Source of the DNA: Pseudoalteromonas sp. Scap06
GTDB lineage: Bacteria; Pseudomonadota; Gammaproteobacteria; Enterobacterales; Alteromonadaceae
Assembly (NCBI RefSeq): GCF_013394165.1
Contig: NZ_CP041330.1
Coordinates: 1,914,501-1,978,500, forward strand
Reading direction: 5' to 3'
Length of the DNA stretch: 64,000 bases
Shown: piece by piece, positions 239-42,071 of the stretch
Layout of the letters: each line of letters begins with the position of its first letter
Numbering within the stretch: position 1 is the first letter of the stretch
Program-made: the position numbers and the translations under genes
The notes under the pieces: model-generated
Told to the model about the DNA's origin: nothing
Database searches by the model: none
What the model saw: the letters and a program-made list of their open reading frames with translations, nothing else

Positions 239-297
239 GGTTATAAATTCTCTATTTAAATCGACTACCCATTAGTTTCTGCTGGGCTTTATATTTG

Positions 298-315: not shown

Positions 316-323
316 CAAACTTC

Positions 324-341: not shown

Positions 342-532
342 CGAATTTTTAAATTTCAACCCCATTAGAGTAATTATTCAATTTTTCTAGAGCGATATTT
401 AAAGGTTAACAACGCTCAAGTACCCAATGGACAACGATTAAATTGCGTGCACTTGTACTTATCCCAAATACTTAACACCATGATAAATAGCGTGCTAAGG
501 TAGTTAAAATTTAGTTAATTTTGGAAGCCATT

Positions 533-1693
533 ATGAACAAAGTAACAACGCGTAAAAAATTTTCTACACTTGCCAAAATCAGTTGTGCATTTGCACTTTC
601 GGGGCTCACCAGCCTCAGTACTTATGCAGTTGATTTTAAAGAATTGGATAAATTAGCGCTTAATGTAAAACCGGTAACTGTTGCCCAAGGAATTTCAATT
701 CCGTGGGCTATTGAGGCTCTGCCAAACGGTGACTTATTAATAACCGAGCGCAGCGGTATCCTTTATTTACTTCGTAATAACTCCACCAGCTTAACTAAAA
801 TCACTGGGCTACCAAAAATAGATGCCAACGGCCAAGGCGGGCTTCTTGATTTAGAGCTACACCCTGATTTTGCTAATAATCAATGGCTATATATTACTTA
901 TTCAAGCAGTGAAGGCGATGGCGCAGGTAGTAACACCGCACTTATGCGTGCAAAGCTAAGTAACGATCACAGCCAACTACTTGAGTCACAACAATTATAC
1001 AAAGGTGAGCATAACTCTAAAAAAGGTCAGCATTACGGCAGCCGTATTGTGTTTGATAACCAAAACTATGTGTATTTTTCGATTGGCGACCGCGGCTCGC
1101 GAGATATTAATCCACAAGATTTAGGCCGTGATGGCGGTAAAATTTATCGTTTACACGACGATGGTAAAATTCCATCCGACAACCCCTTCGTAAACCAAAA
1201 AGGTGCAAAACCAGCGGTTTGGTCTTATGGGCATCGTAACCCACAAGGTATGTGGTTCGATGGTGACAATAGTGTATTTTGGGCACACGAACACGGCCCC
1301 CGTGGTGGCGATGAGCTTAATATGATTAAACCTAAAACTAACTACGGCTGGCCCGTGGTGAGTTACGGTATTAACTACAGCGGCACCTCGTTTACCGATT
1401 TAACAGAAAAACCGGGCATGCAAGCGCCCATATTACAGTGGACACCGTCTATCGCTCCTTCAGACATGTTGCTAGTAAAAGGTGATAAATACCCTGAACT
1501 TAAAGGTAAATTTTTACTCGCTTCAATGAAATACGCCTTTGTTAGCGTATTAGAAATAGTAGATGGCAAGGTCGTTAAACAAAGTAAATTACTTGAAGGT
1601 ATTGGCCGTATTCGCAGCCTAGCCCAAGGTGATGATGGTACTATTTACCTTGGATTAGATGGCCAGGGCATTGTGCGACTAGGTCCTAAGTAG
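533..1693 (+). CDS. Periplasmic PQQ-dependent aldose sugar dehydrogenase (YliI/Asd type)
   Basis: 386 residues from the ATG at 533, chosen because GGAAG lies 5 bases upstream; an upstream TTG at 521 overlaps that site. A signal peptide (lysine-rich start, hydrophobic core, cleavage near TYA-VD, about residue 32) sends it to the periplasm. The rest is a six-bladed beta-propeller of the GSDH/sorbosone dehydrogenase family: motifs include QGGLLDLELHPDF, GSRIVFD, GHRNPQGMWFD and HGPRGGDELN, and the region around PKTNYGWP is typical for the family. Known members oxidise aldose sugars to lactones with PQQ and pass electrons to the respiratory chain. The substrate here is unknown. It appears to be a single-gene unit. 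Confidence 0.85.
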   Translation: MNKVTTRKKFSTLAKISCAFALSGLTSLSTYAVDFKELDKLALNVKPVTVAQGISIPWAIEALPNGDLLITERSGILYLLRNNSTSLTKITGLPKIDANGQGGLLDLELHPDFANNQWLYITYSSSEGDGAGSNTALMRAKLSNDHSQLLESQQLYKGEHNSKKGQHYGSRIVFDNQNYVYFSIGDRGSRDINPQDLGRDGGKIYRLHDDGKIPSDNPFVNQKGAKPAVWSYGHRNPQGMWFDGDNSVFWAHEHGPRGGDELNMIKPKTNYGWPVVSYGINYSGTSFTDLTEKPGMQAPILQWTPSIAPSDMLLVKGDKYPELKGKFLLASMKYAFVSVLEIVDGKVVKQSKLLEGIGRIRSLAQGDDGTIYLGLDGQGIVRLGPK

Positions 1694-1786
1694 TCATTTA
1701 ATACATCTAATTACAGTAACAGCAAACTTTTTGCAGCTTAACTGCGTACTGTTACTGTAATTAGCTAATAAACAACGAGGGTGTTG

Positions 1787-1966
1787 ATGTTTTCATTTTT
1801 AAAGCCAGATCCAATCAAAAAATTGCGTAAAGAGTACGATGCAAAATTAGAGCAAGGCATGCAAGCACAAAGAAAAGGCGATATTAAAAGCTATGCGATG
1901 TTAACTGACGAGGCTGAAAAAATCTGGAATGAAATAGAAGCACTCGAAGCAAAAAAAGCCAAGTAA
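1787..1966 (+). CDS. DUF6435 family small protein
   Basis: 59 residues beginning MFSFLKPDPIKKL. The ATG at 1787 is preceded by GAGG at a 6-base spacing, which favours it over the GTG at 1781. The protein is highly charged and predicted helical (YDAKLEQGMQAQRKGDIKSY, then EAEKIWNEIEALEAKK), matching the small conserved DUF6435 proteins of marine gammaproteobacteria. Its function is unknown. It has no signal or membrane segment, so it is probably cytoplasmic. A strong hairpin terminator follows 27 bases after the stop. Confidence 0.8.
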   Translation: MFSFLKPDPIKKLRKEYDAKLEQGMQAQRKGDIKSYAMLTDEAEKIWNEIEALEAKKAK

Positions 1967-2396
1967 ACATATAGCCTACCAATTCAAACCAATCCCGCGT
2001 TAAAAACGCGGGGTTTTAATACTTACAAACATCCTTTTTTAAATTCACTTAAGCCCAACCAGATAATTCCCCAACTTAACCTCCATCGTAACCAGCTTTT
2101 AATTGAGCACAGCTCATTATACTCATAGCATTATTGCCTTCTCTTACTTATGCTCATAACCTACCTAAAAACTCGCATAAACAATTATTTACATTAACGT
2201 TAATTAGTGGAATTATTAATCTAGTCCAAAAGAGTTGATGCATTGTTTGAAGTAGCAGAATATCAAAGCGCTGATGATTTTGTGAGTGCGAGGAAAGCAT
2301 TTTTAGTAAAGTGTGTAATTAAGCCATAAAGCATCAAAAATTTACTGGAAAAAATGCAATATAATGAAAAAATTATAATTAAATCAAGGAATACAG
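1967..2396. other. Intergenic stretch with a possible coding remnant
   Basis: Beyond the terminator at its left end no gene is evident. Bases 2242-2328 hold an open stretch without a convincing start, reading LFEVAEYQSADDFVSARKAF and ending in TAA; it could be the tail of a decayed gene or chance. The rest is AT-rich with in-frame stops in all frames. Confidence 0.4.
1994..2017 (+). terminator. Rho-independent terminator after the DUF6435 gene
   Basis: The stem CCCGCGTT / AACGCGGG closes a 3-base AAA loop and is followed by G and TTTT. Confidence 0.85.
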
Positions 2397-4788: not shown

Positions 4789-5187
4789 ATGCTTTAAAAA
4801 ACACGCGCCGTTGGCCTATTACTCGCTTTAGCTGAGATAATTAATGGCAATATTAGAGTAAGGATTTTACATCGATTTTACGCTCTAAAACGCGCTAAAA
4901 CACTCAGCTTACTTTTGGGCACTGCGATTATTTATGCCATTACTTGGCTGACCTTGCCATGGGTTAACCCTATTTCGTACTTAGATTGTTTAAATGTGGG
5001 TTTTGTTTGGCTAACAATAATGCTTAGTTTAGATATTGTTGTGGGCAGATATTTATTTAAGTATAAGTTGCACAAAATACTTGATGATTTTAACCTTTTT
5101 AGAGGTAACTTACTGAGTATGGGCATGCTATTACTTTTTATAAGCCCCTGTTTGGTTTTTTGGTTACAGATGAAAGTTATGGTTTAG
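4789..5187 (+). pseudogene. Small multi-pass membrane protein gene interrupted by a stop at codon 3
   Basis: A textbook ribosome-binding site (AGGAGG, 4778-4783) sits 5 bases before ATG at 4789, but the third codon is TAA (4795-4797). Beyond it the same frame stays open for 129 codons, through KTRAVGLLLALAEIINGN and three hydrophobic segments (TLSLLLGTAIIYAITWLTLP, VGFVWLTIMLSLDIVVG, LLSMGMLLLFISPCLVFW), to TAG at 5185-5187. The intact product would be about 132 residues in the inner membrane. A single substitution at 4795 explains the defect. Translation from a later TTG (4915) would lose the first third. I do not recognise the family. The repeat array begins three bases after its stop. Confidence 0.65.
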
Positions 5188-5190
5188 AGC

Positions 5191-5740
5191 ACTCCTCTAA
5201 TAGCGAAGCGTCTCTTCGCCCTCTTTGTGCATAATTGACTAAACCCTATTTGAACACAGTGAAGCGAATGAGGAGTAAATGAGAAGCCATAAAAAGTTAT
5301 CGTGTAGTACACTCCTCTAAAAGCGCAGCGCCTCTTTGCCCTCTTTGTGCATAATTCACTAAACCCTATTTGAACACAGAGAAGCGAATGAGGAGTAAAT
5401 GAGAAGCCATAAAAAGTTATCGTGTAGTACACTCCTCTAAAAGCGCAGCGCCTCTTTGCCCTCTTTGTGCATAATTCACTAAACCCTATTTGAACACAGA
5501 GAAGCGAATGAGGAGTAAATGAGAAGCCATAAAAAGTTATCGTGTAGTACACTCCTCTAAAAGCGCAGCGCCTCTTTGCCCTCTTTGTGCATAATTCATT
5601 AAACCCTATTTGAACACAGAGAAGCGAATGAGGAGTAAATGAGAAGCCATATAAGTTTTGGTTTAATTTACTTCTCTAAAAGCGTAGCGCCTCTTCACCC
5701 TCTTTGTGCGTTAATCACTTAAAACCTGCTTAAAGACAGG
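5191..5740. repeat. Tandem array of a 120-bp palindromic repeat (four full units plus a partial one)
   Basis: Units start at 5191, 5311, 5431 and 5551, and a shortened fifth copy starts near 5670. Units 2 and 3 are identical; unit 4 differs by one base until its last 15 bases; unit 1 differs at several sites. Each unit can fold back on itself: a left arm (ACTCCTC ... CTCTTTGTGC) faces a right arm (GAACACAGAG ... GAGGAGT). There are no spacers, so this is not CRISPR. Related single or double copies lie at 28613-28711 and 45637-45850. Confidence 0.9.
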
Positions 5741-5768
5741 AGTCAATAACCTTTCAACATGCCGTTAT

Positions 5769-6185
5769 CTAAGCTAATGCGGTTACTAGCTTGCCTTTTT
5801 CATGTGTTGGTTGCATTGCCATTCGCTCCGTGCCTTTTTCGAATTCTTGCTCTAACATTTTTTGTAATTCAGCAATCTGCTCTTTTATGGCATCTACATC
5901 AACCCCTTCCTCTCCTAGTTCTTCTGCCAAGGCTTCTATTGCTGCTTTTAACTCAGCTATAGTTTCTTTATCGACACCTAAACGTTGATAAATTAATGCC
6001 TCTTGGGCATTTTCTAAAAAGCTTTTGTCTTCTGGTTTAGCGATAAAATTAGGGGTTGCTTGGTTTTCAGCGGTACTGGTTGTTGCCGCAGCGGCAGATG
6101 TTGGCAGAGCGTCACTCGTTTTTGCCACTTTGTTAACGAGATTATTGTAACTACTATATTGATTTTTAAAGGTTATTGAAGTCAT
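5769..6185 (-). CDS. Hypothetical coiled-coil protein
   Basis: 138 residues starting MTSITFKNQYSSYNNL. An N-terminal half rich in Ala, Ser and Thr (low complexity, near residues 20-45) is followed by a strongly charged helical region (residues 60-120) with heptad-like EALAEELGEEG and IKEQIAELQKMLEQEF, predicted to form a coiled coil. There is no signal peptide or membrane segment. I do not recognise the family. The gene stands alone between the repeat array and a LysR gene on the same strand. Its amino-acid composition is consistent with a real protein. Confidence 0.6.
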   Translation of the reverse strand: MTSITFKNQYSSYNNLVNKVAKTSDALPTSAAAATTSTAENQATPNFIAKPEDKSFLENAQEALIYQRLGVDKETIAELKAAIEALAEELGEEGVDVDAIKEQIAELQKMLEQEFEKGTERMAMQPTHEKGKLVTALA

Positions 6186-6286
6186 TGGCTCAAATCCATT
6201 TTTGCTTTAATCGTTATATTCTTTAGCTGAAATAACTTAAGCAACTTTGATACCAGTTAATATTTGATTGTCTCTAAGGCTTATTT

Positions 6287-7231
6287 TTATTTCAAATTAA
6301 GCCCGCTTAACTCATTTCGCACCCACTTCTCATCTAAATACAGCTCTAAGTGTTGCTCAGCAAACTTTAAAAAGCTGCGTGCAGCGTGTGATATATGTCG
6401 GTCTGTACGCACCACAAAATACCAATGGCTAGCTAAAGTGGTGTCGGTAACATTAAGCACTTTAAAACTATTATCACCTTTAGGCAGCACATGCTGAGAA
6501 AGCACCGCAATCCCCATACCTGAAGCTACCGCCACTCTAATGGCTTCATTACTGGCCATTTGCACACTGTCACTTAATACCAACCCTCTACTTTGCAGCT
6601 CGCTTTCAAATAACATGCGAGTGGCGGAGCCTGTTTCACGCAATAAAAAACGATACGGAACTAAATCAGCCAGTTTAAGTGCGGTTTTATCGGCTAATGG
6701 ATGATTTAGTGGCACTATAAACACTAAAGGGTTATGTAGAAACCTAGCAGCCTGGGCATGCTCTAAAGATGGCGGGTGACTAAATACATAAATATCGTCT
6801 TCTCCGCGTTCAAAGCGTGCTAAAACGGCTGAACGATTACCTATTTCAAGTGGTAGCTCTACATGCGGATGTTCATTACTGTATGGGCCTAACAATTTAG
6901 GTAAAATATATTGGGCAGTATTAACCATAGCAATTTTACATCGTCCACGTTCACCCCCTTTTAGCTCCGCTAAGTAATCTTGGTAATCTTCAAAATGACC
7001 AAAAACCTGTTGGCAAGTCCTAAATAAGGCCATACCAGCTTCGGTTATTTGCAACTTTTGTTGCTGCATAATTATTAACGGTTCATCTACCGCTTCTTGT
7101 AAGCGTTTAATTTGTAAAGAAACCGTAGGCTGAGTCAAATGAAGCCTCCGTGCGGTTTCGCTTATAGAGCCGGTTTTTACTACACTCATAAATACTTCAA
7201 GAAGTCGGAAGGAAAGTTGTCTTATATTCAT
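6287..7231 (-). CDS. LysR-family regulator, CbbR/CmpR-like, divergent from a bicarbonate permease
   Basis: 314 residues from the ATG at 7229-7231, which has GAGG five bases upstream; the GTG at 7237 is too close to that site. An N-terminal winged helix-turn-helix (SISETARRLHLTQPTVSLQIKR, residues 20-41) is followed by an effector domain beginning CKIAMVNTAQYILPKLL, close in style to CbbR/CmpR regulators of carbon-fixation and bicarbonate genes. The divergent neighbour is an SbtA-type permease, so this protein probably controls it. An ATAG-N8-CTAT inverted pair at 7241-7256 in the intergenic region is a candidate binding site. Confidence 0.85.
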   Translation of the reverse strand: MNIRQLSFRLLEVFMSVVKTGSISETARRLHLTQPTVSLQIKRLQEAVDEPLIIMQQQKLQITEAGMALFRTCQQVFGHFEDYQDYLAELKGGERGRCKIAMVNTAQYILPKLLGPYSNEHPHVELPLEIGNRSAVLARFERGEDDIYVFSHPPSLEHAQAARFLHNPLVFIVPLNHPLADKTALKLADLVPYRFLLRETGSATRMLFESELQSRGLVLSDSVQMASNEAIRVAVASGMGIAVLSQHVLPKGDNSFKVLNVTDTTLASHWYFVVRTDRHISHAARSFLKFAEQHLELYLDEKWVRNELSGLNLK

Positions 7232-7240
7232 ACACACCTC

Positions 7241-7307
7241 ATAGGTTTTTATCTATAGGATGTTAGCATTCATTTTATTATTTACTATATAAAGATTTGC
7301 CTATAAT
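7241..7307 (+). promoter_or_regulatory. Promoter and LysR-type site for the bicarbonate permease gene
   Basis: A perfect -10 hexamer TATAAT lies at 7302-7307, about 45 bases before the GTG start; the -35 region (around TTATTT, 7278-7283) is weak, as is usual for an activated promoter. An inverted pair ATAG-N8-CTAT at 7241-7256 lies upstream, where a LysR activator would bind. Regulation is inferred from position. Confidence 0.5.
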
Positions 7308-7351
7308 AGCGCCGCTTAACAAATTAAATTAGTAATAAAGAGGAGAACAGC

Positions 7352-8299
7352 GTGCCTGATATTGTAGTAATGTTTTTTATTTTAGGATTAGCAGCGGGTA
7401 TCCTTCGCTCTGATTTAGCTATCCCCAAAGCGACGTATGACACTCTCAGCTTACTACTCATGCTTACCATAGGTCTAAAAGGTGGCATGGTTCTGCATGG
7501 CAATTTAAGTTGGCAATTACTCCCAGAAATGGCCTCGGTTATGTTACTTGGTGGGCTTATTCCACTCACTTTATACCCTATTTTAAAACACGTTGTTAAG
7601 CTAAGCGTAGCGAATAGCGCCAGCATTGCTGCCCACTATGGTTCGGTTAGTGCTGGTACATTTGCGGTAGCATTAGCGTATGCCGAATCGGCTAAATTAG
7701 AAGTGGGCGCAGAAGTTACCTTGTACCTAGTTATGCTTGAGTTACCAGCAATTATTGTAGGTTTACTGTTGTATCGTAAGCTCGACAAAGCACACAGCGA
7801 AAACACCAACTTATCGTTAAAAGCACTGTGGCACGAAACGCTTACCAATAAGAGTGTGATTTTGCTCGTTGGCGGTGTAATTATCGGTATGATGTATGGC
7901 ACCCAACAGGGTAGCCAAGTTACGAGTTTACTTACCAGTAGCTTTAAAGTAGTGCTGGCGCTATTTTTACTCGAAATGGGCTTGGTTGCTGCACAAACGC
8001 TTCGCCCTTTTCCTTGGCAGCAATGGAAACTGGCTTCCTTCGCCATTATTACGCCGTTATTTTTAGGCACCATTGGCGTTATGGTTGGCACCTTGCTAAA
8101 TTTAGAATTAGGTTCAGTGGTTATTCTGGGGAGCTTAGTGGCGAGTGCTTCTTACATTGCCGCACCTGCTGCTATAAAAGCCGCTATTCCCAAAGCGGAC
8201 ATTGGTCTTGCCATGCTTAGCTCGTTAGGTGTCACCTTTCCATTTAATGTTATTGTTGGGATTGGTTTGTATCATCAACTTGCCGTTGCCATAAGTTAA
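7352..8299 (+). CDS. SbtA-type sodium-dependent bicarbonate permease family protein
   Basis: 315 residues, GTG start at 7352 fixed by AGGAG at a 6-base spacing. About ten hydrophobic segments are visible. The segments GLKGGMVLHGN (near residue 42), AAHYGSVSAGTFAVALAYAE (residues 92-111) and a second-half repeat ending SYIAAPAAIKAAIP match the Sbt_1 (DUF897) family, whose cyanobacterial member SbtA imports bicarbonate with sodium. In marine heterotrophs members of this family may supply bicarbonate for carboxylases; actual substrate here is inferred. No SbtB-like PII partner is adjacent. A hairpin terminator follows. Confidence 0.85.
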   Translation: MPDIVVMFFILGLAAGILRSDLAIPKATYDTLSLLLMLTIGLKGGMVLHGNLSWQLLPEMASVMLLGGLIPLTLYPILKHVVKLSVANSASIAAHYGSVSAGTFAVALAYAESAKLEVGAEVTLYLVMLELPAIIVGLLLYRKLDKAHSENTNLSLKALWHETLTNKSVILLVGGVIIGMMYGTQQGSQVTSLLTSSFKVVLALFLLEMGLVAAQTLRPFPWQQWKLASFAIITPLFLGTIGVMVGTLLNLELGSVVILGSLVASASYIAAPAAIKAAIPKADIGLAMLSSLGVTFPFNVIVGIGLYHQLAVAIS

Positions 8300-8315
8300 A
8301 TATAACGTATTAAAA

Positions 8316-8336
8316 AAGCCCAAAGTGGGCTTCTTT
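8316..8336 (+). terminator. Terminator after the Sbt permease gene
   Basis: Stem AAGCCCA / TGGGCTT around a 3-base loop, followed by CTTT. The A-rich left flank could make it work in both directions, but the helicase gene on the other strand ends 54 bases away. Confidence 0.7.
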
Positions 8337-8389
8337 AATACGTATGAACCACATAATTGGGCACTCTGACGCTTACTTGAGCAACAGTA

Positions 8390-10525
8390 TCAAGCAGTTT
8401 TTGTAACACCTTTAAAGACCGCTTTATTTTTTAACTCAAATACTTCGATTTTATGCTCGTTTATAAGTTCATCAACAAAGCAGCTGGGGTTGTTATCATC
8501 AGTTATTATGTAGACCTTATGTTTAGCGCGAGTAAGCGCTACATAAAATAAGCGACGCTCTTCACTATGTGCGAAATTATCTTTTGCGGGTAATAATACC
8601 TCTAAAATTTGAGGCATTGGCTTAGTGCTCGGGAATCCAAACGCTCCGCCATTCATTGCTAATATAATGACATAATCGGCTTCTTTGCCTTTTGAGCCAT
8701 GAAACGTATCACACTCAATATGCAATGCTGAAAACTCTTGCTGTAAAGCACTTATATCGGCTTGTGAAGGTAACTGAAATCGAAACCGTGCAAGTAAATA
8801 CACAGTAACAGGCTTGCCTGAATGACCCTTAATCCCCTGTAGTAAATACTTAATTGCGCCATTATTTAGCTCCGCTATTTTGGTGTTTTTAGCTGAGCCA
8901 CTTTTCAATGTTTTTAGCACGCTAACGGCGGGCTTAGTTACCTTTGCAACTGAGTGAATGTCTTTAGCTAACTGCGCTGGGTTTTTCATAATAAAACCTG
9001 CGGCAACCTCGCCAATTTTATTATTAAAGCGAAAGGTCCTATCTAATAGAGTTTGTGTTGTAAAACCAAAATGTGCGGCAAACTCGGTAGTAAGTCGCAT
9101 ATCTGCACCACTAAAACGGTAAATAGCTTGCCAATCGTCCCCTACTGCAAACAGTGAACTATTAGACTTACTATCGCGCAGTGCTTTTACAAGTGTAGCT
9201 CGCAGCGGTGATATATCTTGAAATTCATCTACCATGATATAACGCCAAGGCGATGTAAACTTTTTAGTGTTTACATAATCGAGGGCTTTAATAATCATAT
9301 CGTCGAAGTCTATTTCGCCCTGCGTGCGTAAATAATGGTTATAGTTGGCTAACAACGGCTTTAATAATTTCCAGGCTTGCTGTATCTGTTTTGAATCGCT
9401 CTCAAGTGTTATATTTGCGGTTTTATACACGCTGATTAATTGGCTAAACACAGTCGCTAATTTAGTTAAATGACCGCTAGTTTTTATTTCTTTTAAAAGC
9501 GCAATATGATTAGGCTTTGCAGCACTAAATTTAAATTCGCCTTTAACGTCATTAAGAGTGTTATTTATATAATTTACCAGTGCTTTAGCATATTGTGGTT
9601 TAGCATTGGCAAGCGATTCAAAACATCCTTCAACCCATTTTATTTTAGCTTTTTCGTTTTCAGCAAGTTTAGATATTTTAGGTCGCTTGCCCTCAACCTC
9701 GCTAATAATAGTCAAGCCGACGCTGTGAAACGTGGCCGCTTTAATGGACTCAGTGCCCAGCTTTTGTTTAATTCGTTCATCCATTTCGCAAGCAGCTTGC
9801 TTACCATAGGCGAGTAATAAAATATCGTTGTAATTAGCTTGTTCACTGTTAACCAAGTAGCCCGCTCTGGCCACCAACACACTGGTTTTTCCTGTTCCTG
9901 CCCCTGCTAGCACTAAGTTATTGTCGTCATCTATTATACAAGCTCGGCGTTGTTGCTCTGTGAGTGGATTTGCTTCAACACAATTAAAAAAATCGTTATA
10001 GCGCTCTAATTGAGACTGGGTATATTTATGCTGAAAAAAACGAGTGAGTGCATCACTCCACTGGCTGTATTGTTCAAGCAATTTTATTTGTGTGCTTACT
10101 GGTGTTAAAACATCGCTGCTTTTTATCCAAGGTAGCCAACGTTTACATTGCTCATCTACCTGTTTTTTTATATCAGTCACATATGATTGGCGCAAAAACT
10201 GAGTGTGAGCAAAGTGGTTTATTTTACTTAACATCTCGTTGAGCACTGCAATATTGCTTTTAACCCATAGCATATCGGTATGCGCTTTAAATGCCCTATT
10301 GCTGCCATAGGCTCTCATCCAAATACGATAATGCTTAGAGTCTGTATTAAAGCGCAGTGTTTGCCCAAGCACACCATACTCATAGCTAATGGGCGACGTT
10401 AAATCACACCAACTCAATGAGGTTATTTGTGTTTTATTGCTGATCACTAAACCTTGTTGGTTTATATCGACAAAGCGATGCGGGGTAAAGATACGGCCAA
10501 ATATACTAGGCTGAATTGAATTCAT
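8390..10525 (-). CDS. helD: UvrD/Rep superfamily DNA helicase, helicase IV (HelD)-like
   Basis: 711 residues from ATG 10523-10525; a TTG further upstream would add 11 residues. The Walker A motif AGAGTGKTS lies near residue 210 after a roughly 190-residue N-terminal extension, the layout of E. coli helicase IV (684 residues). Further superfamily 1 motifs: VDEFQDISP (Walker B), GDDWQAIYRFSGA, TFHGSKGKEADYVI, and the C-terminal FYVALTRAKHKVYI. Helicase IV unwinds DNA 3' to 5' and has a minor role in recombination and repair. The gene stands alone. The symbol is assigned by domain layout, so I hold it with moderate certainty. Confidence 0.8.
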   Translation of the reverse strand: MNSIQPSIFGRIFTPHRFVDINQQGLVISNKTQITSLSWCDLTSPISYEYGVLGQTLRFNTDSKHYRIWMRAYGSNRAFKAHTDMLWVKSNIAVLNEMLSKINHFAHTQFLRQSYVTDIKKQVDEQCKRWLPWIKSSDVLTPVSTQIKLLEQYSQWSDALTRFFQHKYTQSQLERYNDFFNCVEANPLTEQQRRACIIDDDNNLVLAGAGTGKTSVLVARAGYLVNSEQANYNDILLLAYGKQAACEMDERIKQKLGTESIKAATFHSVGLTIISEVEGKRPKISKLAENEKAKIKWVEGCFESLANAKPQYAKALVNYINNTLNDVKGEFKFSAAKPNHIALLKEIKTSGHLTKLATVFSQLISVYKTANITLESDSKQIQQAWKLLKPLLANYNHYLRTQGEIDFDDMIIKALDYVNTKKFTSPWRYIMVDEFQDISPLRATLVKALRDSKSNSSLFAVGDDWQAIYRFSGADMRLTTEFAAHFGFTTQTLLDRTFRFNNKIGEVAAGFIMKNPAQLAKDIHSVAKVTKPAVSVLKTLKSGSAKNTKIAELNNGAIKYLLQGIKGHSGKPVTVYLLARFRFQLPSQADISALQQEFSALHIECDTFHGSKGKEADYVIILAMNGGAFGFPSTKPMPQILEVLLPAKDNFAHSEERRLFYVALTRAKHKVYIITDDNNPSCFVDELINEHKIEVFELKNKAVFKGVTKTA

Positions 10526-10740
10526 TAACAGCAGAATTCCTTTATAAAAATGAACCAATTAGCCGTATTTTAAGCGAATATGCCGTACAAGGATAATAAA
10601 ACCAATAAAAAATAACAGTAATGTTATACGGACTTGCAGCGTATAAAAAACACCCAATTAATTTACCCAACTGCTTGGCATAAGTCCCACTATATGACTA
10701 ACATTTACTCTAGATACAGTAAGATAACAAGGATTGAAAC

Positions 10741-12783
10741 ATGCGAATAAATTCAATTAGAACTAAAGTCATTTTACCAATCGCTTTTTTAGCACTGATC
10801 CTTGCAGGCTTGCTAGTTGCCATAGCTTCGATTACTTACATACAAGACAACGCTATGAAAAGGCAAACAGAAACCTTTTTTGAAGCTGTTACTGTTATTC
10901 TCAATGCCGACAGAGACATATATCAAGCACGTATTGCACTCGAAAATTTACTCAGCGCAACTGGCGATAGTGAGACGAATAAAACAGAGTTTTTAGAAAA
11001 CGCAGAGCAAGTAAAGGATCGCTTTAACAAATACTTAATCTATTTAAAAGATGAAGAAGCGTTACTCGCAAAGCATGATTCATTTTCCAGCTTTATGCCT
11101 TTGTATAATGAATGGGTCAATCATAGTAAAACACTCATTAATACCAATCACTCGCAAGGTAAAATGCAAAGTGATTTAAATAAATCTGAACCTGAATTTA
11201 TAAAAATACGCGAAATGATGGATCAGGCAGGCGAAGAGCTTCGCGCTTATACTAATGAACAACAGCAAGATAAAGTGGGGGCTGAGCGTTTAGGGCGTTA
11301 TGTAGAAGCCATTTCAGAGGTACTAAATGCCGATAGAGATATATACCAAGCCCGGCTTGCAAAACAAAAAATAGTAAACCAGCATGGTGATTTAGAACAA
11401 AATCAAAAATTATTTGAAGAAAACGCAGCCCAAGTTATACGTCGCTTTAATAGTTATCGTAGCTATTTAATTGACGAGCCTCAGCTAACACAAAAATATG
11501 CCAACTTCGATCAGCTTTATCAGCAATGGTATGAGCAAAGTAAAACCTTGATTTACTCAACTCCTGCAAAGCAAGTCGCTTTAATTGATAATAATTTAGC
11601 AAAAGCTGATAAAAGCTTTAACGAATTAAGAAATATACTTGATGTTGCGGGCGAAGAGGCACGCACACATGCCAGAGCGGTAAAACAAGACGTACAACAT
11701 AGCATTCAACTTTTTGAAAAAATTGTTTTTATTGTGATTATTATTGCCTTTATTGTCGCTTTAGGTGTGGGCTATTACATTCCGAAAAAGCTAACCGATA
11801 ATATCAATAATATTACCCTTCGTATTAAAGAAATAGCCGCTGGCGATGGCGATTTAACCCAGCGTATTAACACTACATCACACGACGAATTAGCTGATTT
11901 AAGCAATGAATTTGATAACTTCTTGAGCCATTTACAAACAATAATAAAAAATATTCAGCAGCAATCAAGCCAACTTGGTGCAGTAACGGGTGATTTAAAT
12001 GATGTATCTGATACCGCGATGGAAGTAACCCAAAAACTTGCTAATGCCTCTGAGTCAATAGTTAGTGCGGGCCATGAGATGGACATGGCCAATCAACAAA
12101 TGGCAGATCTTGCAAAAAATACTGCGCAGGAAGCCGATATATCTAGCGAGCAGGTTAAGCAAGGTGTTCAAGCTATTGATGTGTCAGGCAAAGCGATTGA
12201 AGATTTAGCTAACGATATTGAGTCAGCATTAGCGAATTCGGTTGAACTAGAAAGTAGCTCTACAGATATAACCTCTGTTCTTGAAGTGATACGTAATATT
12301 GCAGAGCAAACAAACTTATTAGCTTTAAATGCAGCGATTGAAGCCGCTAGAGCCGGCGAGCAAGGCCGTGGATTTGCTGTAGTAGCTGATGAGGTAAGAA
12401 CGCTTGCCACACGAACTCAACAAAGCACAGACGAAATTGATACCATGATCCAACGCTTAAATGACAACGTTAAAGCGTCGTCTGATTCGATTAAAAATAG
12501 CCAAACTAATGCCAATACCACTTTAACCAACTTTGACTCAGTAATTACCATTTTTAATAGCCTGACTCACGCATTTGAAAAAGTACAGCAAATGTCGACT
12601 GAAACCGCACAAGCTACACAAGAGCAGTCACATGTGGCTAACGAAATAAATCGAAATTTAGTGTCATTAAAAGAGCAATCTGCACAAATGAAACAAATTT
12701 CCACGCAAACCACGCAACAATCTAAAAATGTATCGGCCTTATATGAGCAAATGAAATCGCAAGTGGAAAGCTTTAAAGTATGA
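10741..12783 (+). CDS. Methyl-accepting chemotaxis protein with duplicated helical sensor module
   Basis: 680 residues. A short cytoplasmic start and a first membrane helix ([15 protein letters not shown], near residue 20) lead to a large periplasmic helical region of about 290 residues. Two similar halves are visible: [16 protein letters not shown] near residue 53 and [16 protein letters not shown] near residue 192, each followed by a conserved ENAEQV/ENAAQV ... YLxDE ... YNEW/YQQW ... SKTLI pattern. A second membrane helix (near 330-350), a HAMP domain and the signalling hairpin tip [20 protein letters not shown] (near residue 522) complete it. The sensor resembles HBM-type bimodular bundles that bind organic acids; the ligand is unknown. 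Confidence 0.9.
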
Positions 12784-35355: not shown

Positions 35356-36603
35356 TCAAATAAAACTACCCATAAAGTAAGAGCCAGCATAACCAAAGGT
35401 GTAACACACTAACAAATACAACGACAAACGAAGGTAACTTGCAAAAGTAAGTTCTTTAACCTTACTCATAGCAATAATACCAGCCGCCGAACCAATGATC
35501 AGCATTGAACCACCCACACCGGTTGCATACGTAAACGACAACCAATGCTGTTGACTCATTACAATGTCGGCTTTTAGTAACGCAGCCGTTAGTGGCACGT
35601 TATCAACACCGGCCGATAAAATACCCATTAAGTAGTTAGCGTACTCTGGCGCCATCACTGTATACAGGTTTGTAAATTGGCTTAGCACGCCCACTTCTTT
35701 TAATGCGCCAACAAGTAATAACACACCTACGAAAAACAGTAAGGTGTCGTACTCTATGTCACGTATAAAGTCGATCATATCTTTATTGATGTCTTTTTTG
35801 CGCATTAAAAATTGCGCGACTAAAAACATAATAGACAGGCCGAGTAAAAAGGTAAGTAACGGCGGCACACTATATAAAACACTTAAAGTAAGGGTAGAAA
35901 TAACGGTAGTGAAGAAAATGACAGCGATAGTAATGTCGGTTTTTTCAATGCGTTTAAATTTAGTCTTTTTAAACTCTAACTGCTTGTTCATACCAATTGA
36001 TAACAAGGTAGCCAGTAATAATACGCTTAATAATGCAGGCACAATTAACAATAATAAGTGACTAATAGTCACTTTACCATCAAGGAAAATCATTAACGTG
36101 GTTACATCACCTGTGATAAGTGAAACACCACCGGAGTTCACTGCAAATACAATTAAGGTGGCGTACTTAACTAGTTTTTTGGCTTCAAGCTTTAATGACA
36201 TGATAACAGCCAAGGAGATCAGTGTAGCTGTTACATTGTCGGAGATAGACGAAAATACAAATGCAAAACACCCTACCAAAAACATTAGCTTTCGTTCACT
36301 AATACTGGTTGGCATTATCCGGTTCACAACATTTTCAATAAGTCCCTTGGAGTTTAAATAGGCAACAAAGGTCATTGCGGCCATTAAAAACAGCCATAAG
36401 GAAGCAATTTCTAAAATATTGTGGTCAAGGAGGGTTTGAATCGTTTCAGGGCTTTGCCCATTAAGAGGAAAAATAAAGGAGATAATCCAACAAAGTGTAC
36501 CAAAAAATAATGTCGTTTTGGCTTTGTTTACGTGAATCACATCCTCAATAACGATAAGCAAGAATGCAATCGCTATCAGCGTCAGGATAATCGAGGAAAC
36601 CAT
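35356..36603 (-). CDS. nhaD: Sodium/proton antiporter NhaD
   Basis: 415 residues from ATG 36601-36603 (a TTG 12 bases earlier lacks a site). About 12 membrane segments. The motifs SSISDNVTATLISLA near residue 118 and VNSGGVSLITGDVTTLMIF near residue 152 and SAGVDNVPLTAALLKA near residue 325 are typical of NhaD antiporters of the ion transporter superfamily. It exports sodium in exchange for protons, important for marine and alkaline life, and maintains the gradient used by the sodium-coupled carriers nearby. Single gene. Confidence 0.9.
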   Translation of the reverse strand: MVSSIILTLIAIAFLLIVIEDVIHVNKAKTTLFFGTLCWIISFIFPLNGQSPETIQTLLDHNILEIASLWLFLMAAMTFVAYLNSKGLIENVVNRIMPTSISERKLMFLVGCFAFVFSSISDNVTATLISLAVIMSLKLEAKKLVKYATLIVFAVNSGGVSLITGDVTTLMIFLDGKVTISHLLLLIVPALLSVLLLATLLSIGMNKQLEFKKTKFKRIEKTDITIAVIFFTTVISTLTLSVLYSVPPLLTFLLGLSIMFLVAQFLMRKKDINKDMIDFIRDIEYDTLLFFVGVLLLVGALKEVGVLSQFTNLYTVMAPEYANYLMGILSAGVDNVPLTAALLKADIVMSQQHWLSFTYATGVGGSMLIIGSAAGIIAMSKVKELTFASYLRLSLYLLVCYTFGYAGSYFMGSFI

Positions 36604-36799
36604 GATATTAAACAACCTTCGGGTTTAAGTAAAAATTGAAACCATGTAAAAAATAGAGGTACACACTCTATGTGCCTATATTCGGCGCGGATACTATCAC
36701 TAAGCGAGTGTAAAAACTATTATTAAATCGTCGCAAAAACGAATACCATATAAGTTCAAGAAATATAAAATAACGAATACTAGGATGTTGTAACGCCTT

Positions 36800-38071
36800 A
36801 TGATCCCAGCTAAAAAGCTACTTAATACCCTCACTGAGCATTGGGGTGTATTAGAGCTATTATTTAAACGCTTTAAAATGGCCGACTTTAGTATTAAAGA
36901 TTTACAAAATGCCATAAAACAAAAGCAACCGACGTGGAATAATGAGCGTATTTATAAAGAAACCAATCGGTTATTAAATCAAGAAATCATTATTCCCTTG
37001 GCTAAATCGTCACAACTAGAAATTAACCGTGCCATTGCGGACTTTGCTACCTTTTTACTTCAAGAAGAACATTTAGGCTTAGCACAAGAAATTAGTGTAT
37101 TGGTTGATGATTTAGCTCGCTTAGGTAACCGGCTATCTAATGCCGGTGAAATGGAAGATTTTGATGATTTACGTCGCTTTAGCCGCATTATGGATGATCG
37201 GGTTCGTAAAATAATTAAGCTGTTTTTACATAACGAAAACGCCATTTTAAATATTGTTGAGCAAGCCAAATCAAATAACGCGGTGCAATCGCTGCAAAAG
37301 CGCTACAAAGCCGTCATAGAAGCGTTTGATGAATATATAGAACCCATGCTAGAAATGGTCGATATTAGAGGCGACTTTCATGCCTGTTTTACTCTAATTG
37401 AGCAACAAATTAGCACCCAAATAGAACATATTGAACGCTCAGGCAAGGCGTACAGTGATAAACGTATGCTTGAGCAATTACGTACTCGTATTCTCGAAAT
37501 GCATCTAGTTGGCCGGACAAGCTTACGTAAAAGTGCCGATATGCTAATGCCACTGCGTGAAGAGTTGCGCCGTAATAACCTTATTACCCGCCAAGCGGCA
37601 AAAGTATTAGGGCTAATTCGTAAAAACGGGGTGGATAATATGCTCAGCGCCGTGCAACCCCATTTTGTAAGCGATGCGCAAAAGTATTCATTGGGTCAAC
37701 AGCGTCATATTGTTGCCTATATGGCAAGCTTAGCTGAGTTTGAACACCACGAATATCAGCTACCAGAACAAAATGATGTGCCCGCGTTTGTCACGCCAAA
37801 CATTCCTGACTATCACGATGTAAAAGCGCAATTTACCAAACGCTTTAAAAAGCAGCGTAAAAAACCACAGCCTTTGCTGCAATTTTTAGATGAAAGCTAT
37901 CCTGAGCTTGAAGCCGATGAAATGCTGTTTTTGTATCAAAAGTTGGTAAGCGATAGCACCCTAGAAATTAGCCAAAGCGATAAAAAAGCCCGCGTTAACA
38001 TTGCAGGCCAGCACTTTAATTTATATCCCTTTAATTCAGAGCCTCAGGCTGATAAAGCCGAGCACGAGTAA
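36800..38071 (+). CDS. mksF: MksF-like kleisin of an Mks-type SMC complex
   Basis: 423 residues. The N-terminal segment (LLNTLTEHWGVLELLFKRFK) and the helical body (residues 60-260) look like MukF/MksF kleisins, with a C-terminal part (residues 330-423) of winged-helix type (FLDESYPELEADEMLFLYQK). Kleisins bridge the two heads of an SMC dimer. The ATG at 36800 has no strong ribosome-binding site; a start at MADFSIKD (36878) is an alternative. The stop is 5 bases before the next gene of the operon. Identification rests on size, order and the two following genes, since I cannot run a profile search. Confidence 0.75.
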   Translation: MIPAKKLLNTLTEHWGVLELLFKRFKMADFSIKDLQNAIKQKQPTWNNERIYKETNRLLNQEIIIPLAKSSQLEINRAIADFATFLLQEEHLGLAQEISVLVDDLARLGNRLSNAGEMEDFDDLRRFSRIMDDRVRKIIKLFLHNENAILNIVEQAKSNNAVQSLQKRYKAVIEAFDEYIEPMLEMVDIRGDFHACFTLIEQQISTQIEHIERSGKAYSDKRMLEQLRTRILEMHLVGRTSLRKSADMLMPLREELRRNNLITRQAAKVLGLIRKNGVDNMLSAVQPHFVSDAQKYSLGQQRHIVAYMASLAEFEHHEYQLPEQNDVPAFVTPNIPDYHDVKAQFTKRFKKQRKKPQPLLQFLDESYPELEADEMLFLYQKLVSDSTLEISQSDKKARVNIAGQHFNLYPFNSEPQADKAEHE

Positions 38072-38076
38072 TCACC

Positions 38077-38625
38077 ATGACCCATATAAACTTAGATGAG
38101 CTTTCTCACTTACAAGCCATTAATAAAAAATTAGTCGCCGGTTACCACATTTGCGAACAAGACACCGTAATGTGGCAAGAGCTTGACCAACAAATAGACG
38201 CTTATACTGCCTTATTTACAGCACTAGGCCACGAGTTAAAACACGATAGCCGTGGTTTTTATTATTTTGCCAGCGATGAAAGCACCCCAAACATGGGTAA
38301 GATTTCCCGCGCTGTAGCGCTCACTATTTACATTTTAATAGAGCATTTTGCCAATACAGGTAAAGACCCAATGCGCGCATTATTTGACGAGCCAAACGAT
38401 TTAGAGCTCATGCAAACCTTGGTGCAACTTAATAAACATTTATTTGATCAGCTTGAGATATTTTCGGGTTCTGACTTACGAAAAGATGTGTATTTACGCA
38501 TGGTACGTTTAGGCCTTGCCCGCGAAGTAGAAGGTGGCTTTATGTTGCAAGCCCCTATTCACCGCTATATTGATGCCTTAATGGAAGTAAACGAAGAGAC
38601 CTTTATTAGTGAGGACGAGCAATGA
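38077..38625 (+). CDS. mksE: MksE-like (KITE) subunit
   Basis: 182 residues. Mostly helical with a winged-helix character (e.g. HELKHDSRGFYYFASDE, residues 53-70, and SRAVALTIYILIEHFANTGK), in keeping with MksE/MukE subunits that bind the kleisin. The stop overlaps the start of the next gene (ATGA at 38622-38625), showing translational coupling, and the gap to mksF is only 5 bases. The size is close to the usual 180-230 residues of MksE. Function: part of a chromosome-organising or DNA-defence SMC complex. Confidence 0.75.
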   Translation: MTHINLDELSHLQAINKKLVAGYHICEQDTVMWQELDQQIDAYTALFTALGHELKHDSRGFYYFASDESTPNMGKISRAVALTIYILIEHFANTGKDPMRALFDEPNDLELMQTLVQLNKHLFDQLEIFSGSDLRKDVYLRMVRLGLAREVEGGFMLQAPIHRYIDALMEVNEETFISEDEQ

Positions 38626-41414
38626 AAAATTTATACGGACTGAGTAAACTCGCCCTACTAAATACCGCAGGCTATGCAAAATGTGTGATCCCACTGGATA
38701 AAAGTAGCTCGATTTGTGCCCCTAACAACACAGGTAAAAGCTCAGTAATTAATGCACTGCAATTTCCGCTAATTAACGATTTACGCCTAACCGAGTGGGA
38801 TGGCCACGATTTAGATGAAACCCGTAAGTTTTATTTTTCATCAGATCAATCGTACATTTTATTGCAAGCCGATTTGCCCCATGGCTCAGTCGTCATTGGC
38901 GTAGCCGGCTTAGGTAAAATTGCCGGTTATGCACACCAATACTTTTGCTATCAAGGTAAGCTTGATTTAGCCCAGTACACCCAAGGCAATACCATTATTA
39001 AGTTTACCAAGCTGTTTAATCACTTAAAGCAGCAAGGTTACAACCCAATAGAGCTTAAAGCACAAGAGTTAAACGCCCTACTGACAGGCGGAGCAACGCA
39101 ATTTGACGGTGAGATCAATTTAAAAATGATCCCCCTTAACAACGTTCAAGACTCTGCAATATACAAAGAAATATTTCGTCGTATTCTTAATTTACATAAA
39201 TTAGGCGCAAACGACGTTAAGCGCTTTATGCTCCGTGTGTTTGAACGCCATATGTCAAATTCTAAGGTCGACTTTTACGAGGTTTGGCGCCGTTCGTTTG
39301 ATAAAGTAAACCGCGCAAAACGTGAATTAAAAGCCCTTGAGTCAATGCAAGAGCCCATAGCCGCCCTTGAATCTATGCTTGAAAACCAAACCGTTCTTAA
39401 AGGTAAACTGGCCGCTTATGCACCAAAAATTGACCAAGCACTGATTGATTTTGATGCTTACCAAGAAGAGCAACTAAGCGAGCTCAACATCGCCCTTGAA
39501 GACATTGAGCACGAAAAGCACGAGTTCGAACAAAAGCAAGGGCTATACGTGCAACAATCGCGCGATATAGAGCGCAAGCAAACTCAAATTGAACAATGGT
39601 TTTTAGATTTCAACGCCCTTAAAAGTGAATTTGAGCTGGTTAATAAAGCCACTATCAAAAGCAACCTAACGCAGTTAAAAAATGACTACGAGTCGTTGTC
39701 ACACTCTATTACGAGTGCTCAAGGGCAAAGTCTGCACACCCTTGATTACCGTATTGGTGAAACACAAAAACAAATTAAGAGCTTAAAGTTACAACTTAAA
39801 AACTTAGAATTTAATTTATTCACCCGTATGCGTGAAGACTTATCACTTAAAGAAGTAGAAGAAATATCGCGGCTATTGAACCCCGATCTTCTCTCCTTTG
39901 CCACCACCAGTAATGGCGATATAACCATTGATGACGAAGACGCCTTTGGTGAATTTTTATCACAGCTGAGCGAAAATGTTAAAGGCGGTATACTCACCCT
40001 ACCTGGTGCCAGTATTAAACTTAAAAAGCTCTCACCAGTACAAATGCAAAGCGGCGAAAATAAAGAGCAACTGAGCGCTCAGTTAACCGCGCTTGAGCAA
40101 TCATTAAAAGAGTTTAAACAACAGCGCGAAGTGGCCGCCAATGTTGCTGATAAACAAAAAGAAAAAGACGCGCTATACGAGGAGCTTATGAGTGCAGAAA
40201 GTGCACTTAAACGCTTAGAGCAATTTGAAGTGATGCAACAGTCAGTTGACGCCCAAGCAATGCTAAAAGAGCAGCTTTTAGCCGAGCGCGAACAAGTTGA
40301 CGATTACCTACAAGATATTCAAAAAAACAGTGGCTCAATTGCTGATAGACGCTCGTTAATCAAATCAAAACAAGCGCAAATTAATCGTCAAACAGAGCGC
40401 TTACGCCAAGTTAAAACTGAGCGTATTGACCACACTTTAGATTTATACAGTGGTAAAGTAACGCCTTACATGATTGATATAAAAATCGATTTTGATAATT
40501 TAAGCGATTTAATTCATCACTTTAATAAGGACTGCCAAGAGCTACGTAATTTCGATATAAATGTACGTAATACCTATATGCATATTTATAATGCCGGTAT
40601 CACTAAGTTTGATAACGAAAACGATGAGTTTAGTAAATATCAAAAGCTTATTAGCGCGTTTCATAACATTGATAACGAGCGCGATGCAGTTGAGCGCCAA
40701 GGTCGCGTTGCCCTCACCGAAGTAGCCGCTACAATTAAAGGACTGCGCGAAGATTTAGACCGCTTACGCCGTGAAATGAATAGCTTTAATAAAGGCATTA
40801 GCCAGCACCGCATCTCAAACCTGCAAGCGTTTAAAATTAATATTATCCCGCGCAAAATGTTGGTAGATAGTATTGATACCATTATCAGTACCTCTAACCA
40901 ATTTGAACAAGGCGATACCCTAGATTTACTCAGCCAAGAACCTTATAGCGAGAGCGCGGTAAACGAGGCAAAAGATCATTTAATTAAACTCGCCTCAGAC
41001 AAAGCAGGTCTGACCCTCACCGATTTGTTTGATATTCGTTTTGAAGTGGTTAACCGTGCAGGTGAAACCGAGCACTTTGAAAAGATAGACTCGGCTGGCT
41101 CAAATGGTACACGTATCACCATTAAGCTATTATGTGGCATGTTGTTTATTCGTTATTTATTAAGCGATCAGGAACAAAACTTATACCGTATACCTATTTA
41201 TATAGATGAAGCGGCTGATATCGACCCGCAAAATCAAAAGGCAATTATAGAAACTGCCCTGAGCTTTGGCTTTGTGCCAATATTTGCCTCGGTTAAACCG
41301 CAAATAAGTTGTGATTATATTGTGCCAATTCGTTCAGTAAAAGACGGCGCACAAAACTGGGTAGATGAAAAAGATTGGATTGAGGTTGAACATAAATCAC
41401 CTCAGCTAGACTAA
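38622..41414 (+). CDS. mksB: MksB-like SMC ATPase
   Basis: 930 residues. Walker A APNNTGKSS lies at residues 33-41; long coiled-coil arms (about 230-420 and 480-760: e.g. AESALKRLEQFEVMQQ) flank a small hinge region; a signature-like SAGSNGTRITIKLL lies near residue 823 and Walker B (IPIYIDEAADID) near 860. This is the layout of a short SMC protein of the MukB/MksB class, shorter than MukB (1486). The protein should form a dimer that extrudes or clamps DNA, with MksE and MksF. No MksG/JetD nuclease gene follows; the next gene is a lipoprotein 105 bases away. This argues for a chromosomal Mks rather than a full Wadjet system. Confidence 0.82.
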   Translation: MKNLYGLSKLALLNTAGYAKCVIPLDKSSSICAPNNTGKSSVINALQFPLINDLRLTEWDGHDLDETRKFYFSSDQSYILLQADLPHGSVVIGVAGLGKIAGYAHQYFCYQGKLDLAQYTQGNTIIKFTKLFNHLKQQGYNPIELKAQELNALLTGGATQFDGEINLKMIPLNNVQDSAIYKEIFRRILNLHKLGANDVKRFMLRVFERHMSNSKVDFYEVWRRSFDKVNRAKRELKALESMQEPIAALESMLENQTVLKGKLAAYAPKIDQALIDFDAYQEEQLSELNIALEDIEHEKHEFEQKQGLYVQQSRDIERKQTQIEQWFLDFNALKSEFELVNKATIKSNLTQLKNDYESLSHSITSAQGQSLHTLDYRIGETQKQIKSLKLQLKNLEFNLFTRMREDLSLKEVEEISRLLNPDLLSFATTSNGDITIDDEDAFGEFLSQLSENVKGGILTLPGASIKLKKLSPVQMQSGENKEQLSAQLTALEQSLKEFKQQREVAANVADKQKEKDALYEELMSAESALKRLEQFEVMQQSVDAQAMLKEQLLAEREQVDDYLQDIQKNSGSIADRRSLIKSKQAQINRQTERLRQVKTERIDHTLDLYSGKVTPYMIDIKIDFDNLSDLIHHFNKDCQELRNFDINVRNTYMHIYNAGITKFDNENDEFSKYQKLISAFHNIDNERDAVERQGRVALTEVAATIKGLREDLDRLRREMNSFNKGISQHRISNLQAFKINIIPRKMLVDSIDTIISTSNQFEQGDTLDLLSQEPYSESAVNEAKDHLIKLASDKAGLTLTDLFDIRFEVVNRAGETEHFEKIDSAGSNGTRITIKLLCGMLFIRYLLSDQEQNLYRIPIYIDEAADIDPQNQKAIIETALSFGFVPIFASVKPQISCDYIVPIRSVKDGAQNWVDEKDWIEVEHKSPQLD

Positions 41415-41519: not shown

Positions 41520-42071
41520 ATGAAACACATATTTATTGTCGCAGCACTGGCATTACTAACCGCCTGTACACAAACGCCCGATTGGGATTACGATAAATCA
41601 GCAAACTTTAGTAACTACAAAACGTTTGCTTGGGTAGAAAACGCGAGTCTAACCAAAGACACGAATAACTACCAAATCAGTGGGCTTATGGAAAAACGCG
41701 TTCGCAATGCGGTAAACAACCAACTAAGCCAACAATTAGGTATGCAATTGGTTGATGTAGCGCAAGCTGATGTACTTGTTAATTACCATGCAAGTGTAGA
41801 TAAAGAGCTTGAAGTTGACAGCTTTAACGTAGGCTACGGTGCGCGTTGGGGTTACTGGGGCACAGGCTTTAACCACGATGTAAGCGCACGCGAATATGAA
41901 GTAGGCACATTAGTTATCGATATTATTGATCGTGAGTCAAACCAATTAATTTGGCGTGGTGCTAAAGATGGTCGTTTAAAGAAAAAACAAACCCCATCAC
42001 AACGTGAAGCCGCTATTAAGGAAACGGTTGCCAATATTTTAAGTAACTTTCCGCCTAAAGCGCAGCAATAA
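41520..42071 (+). CDS. DUF4136 lipoprotein
   Basis: 183 residues with a lipobox LLTAC (lipidated Cys16). The mature part opens DWDYDKSANFSNYKTFAW and ends with LIWRGAKDGRLKKKQ, the typical DUF4136 pattern. Lipoprotein localisation probably is the periplasmic face of the outer membrane, as the residue after Cys is Thr. Function unknown; members are common in gammaproteobacteria and Bacteroidetes. It is a single-gene unit with a strong terminator. Confidence 0.88.
   Translation: MKHIFIVAALALLTACTQTPDWDYDKSANFSNYKTFAWVENASLTKDTNNYQISGLMEKRVRNAVNNQLSQQLGMQLVDVAQADVLVNYHASVDKELEVDSFNVGYGARWGYWGTGFNHDVSAREYEVGTLVIDIIDRESNQLIWRGAKDGRLKKKQTPSQREAAIKETVANILSNFPPKAQQ

Follow-up and report, generated by a model that had tools for sequence, protein, structure and literature searches.

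What does a kleisin-KITE-SMC operon do in a bacterial chromosome when the nuclease gene found in plasmid-restricting Wadjet systems is missing from it? Three genes of this kind lie in the window, that is, the whole stretch of 64,000 nucleotides of Pseudoalteromonas sp. Scap06 analyzed here. The earlier note had considered a chromosome-organising MksBEF, a defence system recruiting a host nuclease, and a divergent SMC branch. Its interpretation holds in part: the operon most likely encodes a housekeeping MksBEF condensin that organises the chromosome, comparable to the one in P. aeruginosa, and not a defence system, whereas neither the borrowing of a nuclease nor a separate SMC branch finds support.

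Gene layout and family assignment

The operon spans positions 36800-41414, with all three genes on the forward strand and starting at ATG in the list of open reading frames. The tight coupling that had been described is confirmed by the coordinates, which give products of 423, 182 and 930 residues, a gap of 5 bases between the kleisin and KITE genes and an overlap of 4 bases between the KITE and SMC genes (38622-38625). The lipoprotein gene reported to follow corresponds to the next gene on the 3′ side (41520-42071), whose product is a DUF4136 protein (Pfam) that reads as a lipoprotein from its N-terminus. The terminator-like hairpin after the SMC stop codon is weak evidence alone, because the region has 8 such matches where shuffled sequence averages 6.5. 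The divergent transporter gene upstream encodes a protein that we take to be NhaD-like.

Table 1. Features of the Mks locus (window positions; motif coordinates were counted from the SMC alignment)
Feature	Position	Strand	Basis
CitMHS-type transporter gene, divergent conserved neighbour outside the complex	35356..36615	-	Pfam CitMHS
Kleisin subunit, 423 aa (MksF in the literature; "MksB" in NCBIfam)	36800..38071	+	NF040857 match
KITE subunit MksE, 182 aa	38077..38625	+	Pfam MksE PF21980, NF040858
SMC ATPase subunit, 930 aa (MksB in the literature; "MksF" in NCBIfam)	38622..41414	+	NF040859
Walker A core NNTGKS, SMC subunit	38724..38741	+	Alignment; 79/79 named relatives
Signature-like motif SAGSNGT, SMC subunit	41091..41111	+	Alignment; 78/79 named relatives
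Walker B YIDEAADID, SMC subunit	41199..41225	+	Alignment; 79/79 named relatives
Terminator-like hairpin, directly 3′ of the SMC stop codon	41419..41445	+	Hairpin scan; weak alone

All three proteins match the NCBIfam Mks condensin models, yet far under their equivalog cut-offs: the kleisin scores 211.8 bits on NF040857 (E 1.4e-62; cut-off 750), the KITE 130.1 bits on NF040858 (cut-off 400) and the SMC 556.4 bits on NF040859 (E 1.1e-166; residues 3-920 of 930; cut-off 1900). These models are narrow: none of the 108 genomes of the genus passes the one for the SMC, and 14 control genomes, C. glutamicum included, give no match. The KITE also reaches 137.8 bits on Pfam MksE PF21980, above the gathering cut-off of 27, a model that is passed by the KITEs of nuclease-bearing relatives as well and does not separate the two kinds. 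Judged by sequence, the operon is a divergent MksBEF and not the NCBIfam equivalog itself, and the NCBIfam and Pfam matches refute a branch outside Mks.

In structural comparisons, the kleisin and the KITE come nearest to MukF and MukE. The AlphaFold2 model of the kleisin is middling (mean pLDDT 69.5, pTM 0.42), and its best fold match in the PDB is the MukBEF chain 9gm7_C (E 7e-4), the sole match at E <= 0.001, followed at ranks 2-6 by other MukF/MukBEF entries. A profile built from 16 KITEs retrieves structures of MukE at E 1.8e-6, and the single KITE sequence found MukE at E 0.93 only. Single-sequence PDB searches gave no match for the SMC and, for the kleisin, one dismissed as due to chance; the coiled-coil matches of an SMC profile to structures were rejected on the same ground, and a kleisin profile matched no structure. 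With the PADLOC JetA, JetB and JetC models, which separate little, as nuclease-bearing relatives score as weakly, the kleisin had no match, the KITE reached 13.2 bits and the SMC at most 26.7 bits (residues 482-754).

The SAGSNGT motif and this form of Walker B differ from canonical SMC motifs. Both occur as the earlier note had quoted them, and their forms are the rule in the lineage (Table 1), the sole relative without SAGSNGT being one whose SMC frame is split (L094). Purifying selection on the operon is indicated by dN/dS values of 0.020-0.087 over 18 comparisons, which pair the three genes with those of six relatives; as dS exceeds 1 in most of them, the values are rough.

Distribution of the operon and search for a nuclease

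The Mks SMC gene is present in 105 of 108 Pseudoalteromonas genomes. Among 79 named loci, from Pseudoalteromonas, Algicola, Rheinheimera and three MAGs, the operon neighbours an aspartokinase gene in 76 and the CitMHS-type transporter gene in 75, as expected of vertical inheritance. The three genomes of the genus without the gene keep the upstream neighbours, and the SMC frame is split in L094 and L119 and also in G828, G838 and G869, possibly the same organisms, so that the gene is dispensable. Outside the genus its occurrence is patchy: the SMC search was negative in all 24 genomes taken from 24 other families of the order, and a full-length match was found in one of the 14 genomes listed from other genera of the same family.

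As had been noted, the operon contains no nuclease gene. None was found at the window locus, and a nuclease HMM run over 128 loci of the window's lineage and the Pseudomonas-like lineage gave no match, so that the sign of recent loss named in the earlier note, a toprim nuclease in the operons of close relatives, did not appear. A distant MksG, proposed for search, did not emerge either, with no match to JetD_C or DUF7281 in the window's genome; a literature search on DUF7281 returned no paper. Four of 36 genomes of the genus have JetD_C matches (G016, G018, G023 and G034), which in the first three lie on a different contig from the Mks operon, G034 having no such operon; G018 and G023 carry their JetD-like gene in a cassette of its own (L183, L184). 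More distant relatives, with SMC identities of 23-29%, do have a toprim nuclease gene in the operon, and this speaks for an old difference and against a recent loss. The genome also encodes a canonical SMC, in a frame of 1139 aa matched at C1:2142714-2143505 and at 2145657-2146058, and the MukB N-terminal domain PF04310 was found neither in the genome nor in the Pfam scan of the Mks SMC.

A chromosomal condensin or a defence system

The operon resembles the MksBEF of P. aeruginosa and relatives in its kleisin-KITE-SMC order, in similar protein sizes, in the lack of a detectable nuclease gene and, according to PMC7485682 for P. aeruginosa, in coexisting with a canonical SMC. It differs from Pseudomonas-like MksBEF, meaning loci that pass or near NF040859 and whose standing for P. 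aeruginosa comes from the model and not from a named sequence, in an SMC 31% identical to the protein passing that model (L125), in scores far below the cut-offs, in its neighbours and in a separate branch in most trees. With Wadjet (MksBEFG, JetABCD) it shares the three core subunits, and its more distant relatives have a compact JetD-like fourth gene, but none came up in the operon, in any of the 128 loci (nuclease HMM) or in the genome at large (JetD_C and DUF7281). MukBEF is likewise a condensin without nuclease, and its MukF and MukE are nearest to the window's kleisin fold and KITE profile; however, the window's SMC has 930 aa against 1482-1549 aa for the MukB frames of nine relatives in the order, in a genome with canonical SMC and no MukB domain.

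A role in defence against plasmids or phages, through compaction without cutting or with the help of a nuclease, possibly of an unrelated family, acting in trans, would fit the Wadjet-group SMC type and the four-gene, nuclease-bearing systems of the more distant relatives. It is nevertheless improbable, given a genome without JetD_C or DUF7281 matches, JetD_C genes in the genus that sit apart from the operon, and a near-universal presence with conserved upstream neighbours that is unlike the patchiness of defence genes. The split frames and the three genomes without the gene could instead reflect a decaying Wadjet that lost its nuclease recently, a reading that we consider very unlikely in view of the low dN/dS values, the ATPase motifs kept in 78-79 of 79 relatives and the absence of a detected nuclease from all three named genera, which makes the difference an old one.

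The chromosomal MksBEF that we favour is supported by the family models, the distribution, the conserved upstream neighbours and the lack of a detected nuclease. In P. aeruginosa, MksBEF takes part in organising and segregating the chromosome (PMC10586767 and PMC7485682). Our literature search found no experiments on Mks in Pseudoalteromonas, and the following scheme is drawn from relatives. As in other condensins of the MukBEF/Wadjet group, the kleisin would bridge two SMC subunits and be bound by KITE dimers, and the SMC heads, by binding and hydrolysing ATP, would drive DNA loading and the extrusion of loops. Lacking MksG/JetD, the complex would not cut the extruded DNA, and would thus act as a second chromosomal condensin beside canonical SMC, as in P. 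aeruginosa, with a probable role in segregation and a division of labour between the two.

One nuclease loss or more

A further question is whether the nuclease-less state is shared with Pseudomonas-like MksBEF. In most of our trees, the window's lineage does not join Pseudomonas-like MksBEF but instead relatives whose nuclease is a compact DUF7281 protein, some of them plasmid-borne on large plasmids. Nuclease-less MksBEF may have arisen at least twice from four-gene systems of the plasmid-restriction type, with independent domestication in the window's lineage, a proposal at which the trees hint without proving it and to which we give about an even chance; under it, the nearest kin of the Pseudoalteromonas/Rheinheimera/Algicola lineage would be the four-gene kleisin-KITE-SMC-DUF7281 systems, found partly on large plasmids, and not Pseudomonas-like MksBEF. 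A single nuclease-less clade, defined by the nuclease trait after the first tree had been seen, is rejected by the SMC heads (p-AU 0.0056 and, in a later tree, 0.0024; 0.0099 with two long rows left out) and by the three proteins joined (0.0007).

The same function could also follow from one loss common to both lineages, the split being a long-branch artefact, which we regard as a serious possibility of slightly under even probability. Rejection becomes marginal when three long rows are left out (p-AU 0.051), and the kleisin tree alone does not reject the single clade (0.226). Raw similarity also favours one loss: on a model that a Pseudomonas-like protein passes, the SMC of the window reaches 556 bits, against 293-342 for four nuclease-bearing relatives, and its head is 38% identical to Pseudomonas-like proteins, against 34-36% for the nuclease-bearing group placed with it in the tree and 31% for L128.

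These trees rest on chosen representatives, in sets of 21, 20 (14 chromosomal, without L130, and 6 plasmid), 18 and 17 rows; the kleisin tree is without G_L126, and the joined tree is without G_L126 and P_Salinibacter and includes G_L164 without its KITE. We discarded a quick tree of 46 full-length SMC rows, which had not been run to completion and showed very long branches; its Wadjet rows L183 and L184 (branch 9.5) were dropped from later trees. The trees also leave aside the weaker class-level matches L131-L133, each with what reads as a JetD-like ORF before the SMC, L166 (where the SMC is matched in part and the nuclease HMM matches too), and weak phylum matches such as L167-L171.

Several members of the Wadjet group without nuclease are already in print (PMC7617805), which makes the operon itself ordinary, and it may already figure in the supplementary operon list of that paper. 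Its interest lies in adding a second lineage, made up of marine bacteria that live freely, whose Wadjet-type SMC seems to function with no nuclease.

The gene set and its family

The compact three-gene operon described in the earlier note was confirmed (Table); 5 bases separate the kleisin and KITE genes, and the KITE and SMC genes overlap by 4. NCBIfam Mks condensin families match all three proteins across most of their length, with scores far below the equivalog cut-offs: 211.8 bits for the kleisin (NF040857, cut-off 750), 130.1 for the KITE protein (NCBIfam Mks model, cut-off 400) and 556.4 for the SMC protein (NF040859, cut-off 1900). The KITE protein clears Pfam MksE (137.8, cut-off 27), and a KITE profile matches MukE structures (E 1.8e-6). 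The kleisin was modelled with AlphaFold2 at middling quality (pLDDT 69.5, pTM 0.42), and the model has a MukBEF chain as top fold match (E 7e-4, the sole match at E <= 0.001) and a JetABCD core chain at rank 7. PADLOC Wadjet models barely respond to the operon proteins. NCBIfam labels NF040857 as MksB and NF040859 as MksF, the opposite of published usage, which in excerpts of PMC7617805 names the kleisin JetA/MksF, alongside JetC/MksB.

Named relatives of the SMC protein (79 distinct loci retained from 102 matching stretches) come from Pseudoalteromonas (best SMC identity 98%), Rheinheimera, one Algicola and three Gammaproteobacteria MAGs. Walker A and Walker B are present in 79/79 and the signature motif in 78/79, and dN/dS ranges from 0.020 to 0.087 in 18 comparisons, with dS > 1 in most of them. 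The SMC frame is split in two of the 79 loci, as well as in three genus genomes (G828, G838 and G869), possibly from the same organisms; the splits may be sequencing errors.

Coordinates of the operon and of related features
Feature	Sequence	Coordinates	Strand	Content
Three-gene operon	window	36800-41414	+	
Kleisin gene	window	36800-38071	+	423 aa
KITE gene	window	38077-38625	+	182 aa
SMC gene	window	38622-41414	+	930 aa
Putative thermonuclease-like ORF	L126 (G299)	126-884		signal peptide
WYL-domain gene, divergent	L210 (Neptuniibacter plasmid)	1239-2081		
Additional cassette	L183 (Pseudoalteromonas)	4993-11560		WYL gene, JetD-like gene, SMC-like (971 aa), 472-aa protein, MksE (199 aa)
Additional cassette	L184 (Pseudoalteromonas)	5625-12243		as in L183

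Distribution and genomic position

The SMC model matches 105/108 Pseudoalteromonas genomes. In a relatives set of 60 genomes, all 33 matches fall within the 36 of the same genus (including the window's own) and none in the remaining 24, each from a different family of the order, while a full-length SMC match occurs in one of the 14 genomes listed from other genera of the family, a patchy distribution outside the genus. Among the 79 named loci, neighbour clusters, with families assigned from the window's own proteins, comprise aspartokinase in 76, CitMHS in 75 and DUF4136 in 61. Three genus genomes without the operon (G003, G017 and G034) retain both upstream neighbours, the aspartokinase being identified there by reading of ORFs, with a different ORF at the site. 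The host genome (4.13 Mb) has two contigs, and the window lies on that of 3.38 Mb, where the operon sits at 0.578 of the length and a RecF-sized SMC_N match 2.6 kb from the start; in G002, another genome compared, the operon is at 0.561, with a comparable match near the contig start. Provided that contigs start at the origin, the operon would lie near the terminus.

Nuclease search and four-gene relatives

The absence of a nuclease gene proposed earlier also held in a genome-wide search for a distant JetD/MksG nuclease, in which JetD_C had no match in the window's genome. This domain matches in 4/36 genus genomes, in three of them on a contig other than that of the Mks operon, and the fourth, G034, has no such operon. 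As the nearest four-gene relatives use a compact domain different from JetD_C, DUF7281, the window's genome was searched for it too, with no match and no candidate. An HMM from 11 DUF7281-type nucleases, which recovered L127, outside the training set, at 282.8 bits, found nothing in 128 loci (31 genus genome loci, two being the window itself, 79 named, one same-family and 17 Pseudomonas-like; some organisms may be represented by both a genome and a named locus), within flanks reaching at most 1.5 kb in genome loci and 8 kb in named loci, the downstream flank being very short in L150 and L161.

In the class search, the SMC model matches 10/369 genomes, one of them the window's own. In G221 (1991 bits, which exceeds the cut-off) and G299 (1006 bits), no nuclease follows the SMC gene and DUF7281 has no match; G210, G068, G209 and G338 (318-348 bits) all have a DUF7281 match directly behind the SMC gene, below the cut-off in G068. 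The remaining three matches, short and weak, were left out. The phylum search added a four-gene locus (L165 of G546) and 15 further loci of G221's family, in which a nuclease was looked for and none found. Since G221 passes the NCBIfam model, this family is taken as Pseudomonas and kin. According to excerpts of PMC10123090, Pseudomonas species such as strain PA14 also have a four-gene mks operon with MksG, taken here as a separate Wadjet.

Six plasmid matches (Polaromonas, Neptuniibacter, Halioglobus, two Pseudomonas and Salinibacter; L209, L210, L211, L212, L213 and L214) show the order kleisin-KITE-SMC-compact JetD-like nuclease. Pfam recognised DUF7281 in three of the five fourth genes run, and all six align with motifs [VI]EN, DYD and E[QH]E, which have a catalytic role in JetD. 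The annotated records call all four genes "hypothetical", L211 being without annotation. PADLOC models respond only weakly to the four-gene DUF7281 kind, as scanned with its chromosomal proteins. The WYL-domain gene on the Neptuniibacter plasmid lies upstream of the operon. The thermonuclease-like ORF of G299, from ORF reading, stands ~0.6 kb behind its SMC gene, and a gene annotated as thermonuclease family lies near the Salinibacter operon; both placements are probably chance. The cassettes in L183 and L184 are separate and additional, and their 472-aa protein has no family match, being a putative kleisin from its position. TniQ, TniB and a Mu-type transposase gene adjoin that of L184, which suggests a Tn7-like carrier.

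Ancestry and likely role

In a tree of 20 SMC heads, the window's lineage joins six nuclease-bearing systems (support 98/99), and the Pseudomonas-like type, the nuclease-less lineage around G221, stands apart. In these unrooted trees, a joint nuclease-less clade, named only after the first tree was seen, is rejected with SMC heads (p-AU 0.0056 in the first set, 0.0024 with 20 proteins), with two long rows removed (0.0099) and with heads, kleisin and KITE joined (0.0007); p-AU is 0.051 with three long rows removed, and the kleisin-only tree does not reject the clade (0.226). Head identity of the window's SMC is 38% to Pseudomonas-like proteins versus 34-36% to the nuclease-bearing group that it joins, and it scores higher than nuclease-bearing SMCs with the Pseudomonas-like model; raw sequence similarity points opposite to the SMC-head and joined trees. 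The fourth genes of the two sides resemble each other and occupy the same position, which suggests that the nuclease may have been lost twice, independently.

The operon very probably encodes a chromosome condensin, its most likely role. The complex would load onto DNA and extrude loops through ATP hydrolysis, a mechanism drawn from MukBEF and Wadjet (PMC7617805, PMC10586767). MukB has no match in the window's genome, which contains a canonical SMC frame of 1139 aa. This pairing of canonical SMC with an MksBEF-type operon resembles P. aeruginosa, where, according to parts of PMC7485682, both are present and act in segregation. The absence of MksG/JetD from MukBEF and from several further members of the Wadjet group is already reported by a survey that started from 254,733 bacterial genomes (PMC7617805), so that the operon's kind is known, and the sole point of wider interest would be that the nuclease may have been lost a second time, independently.
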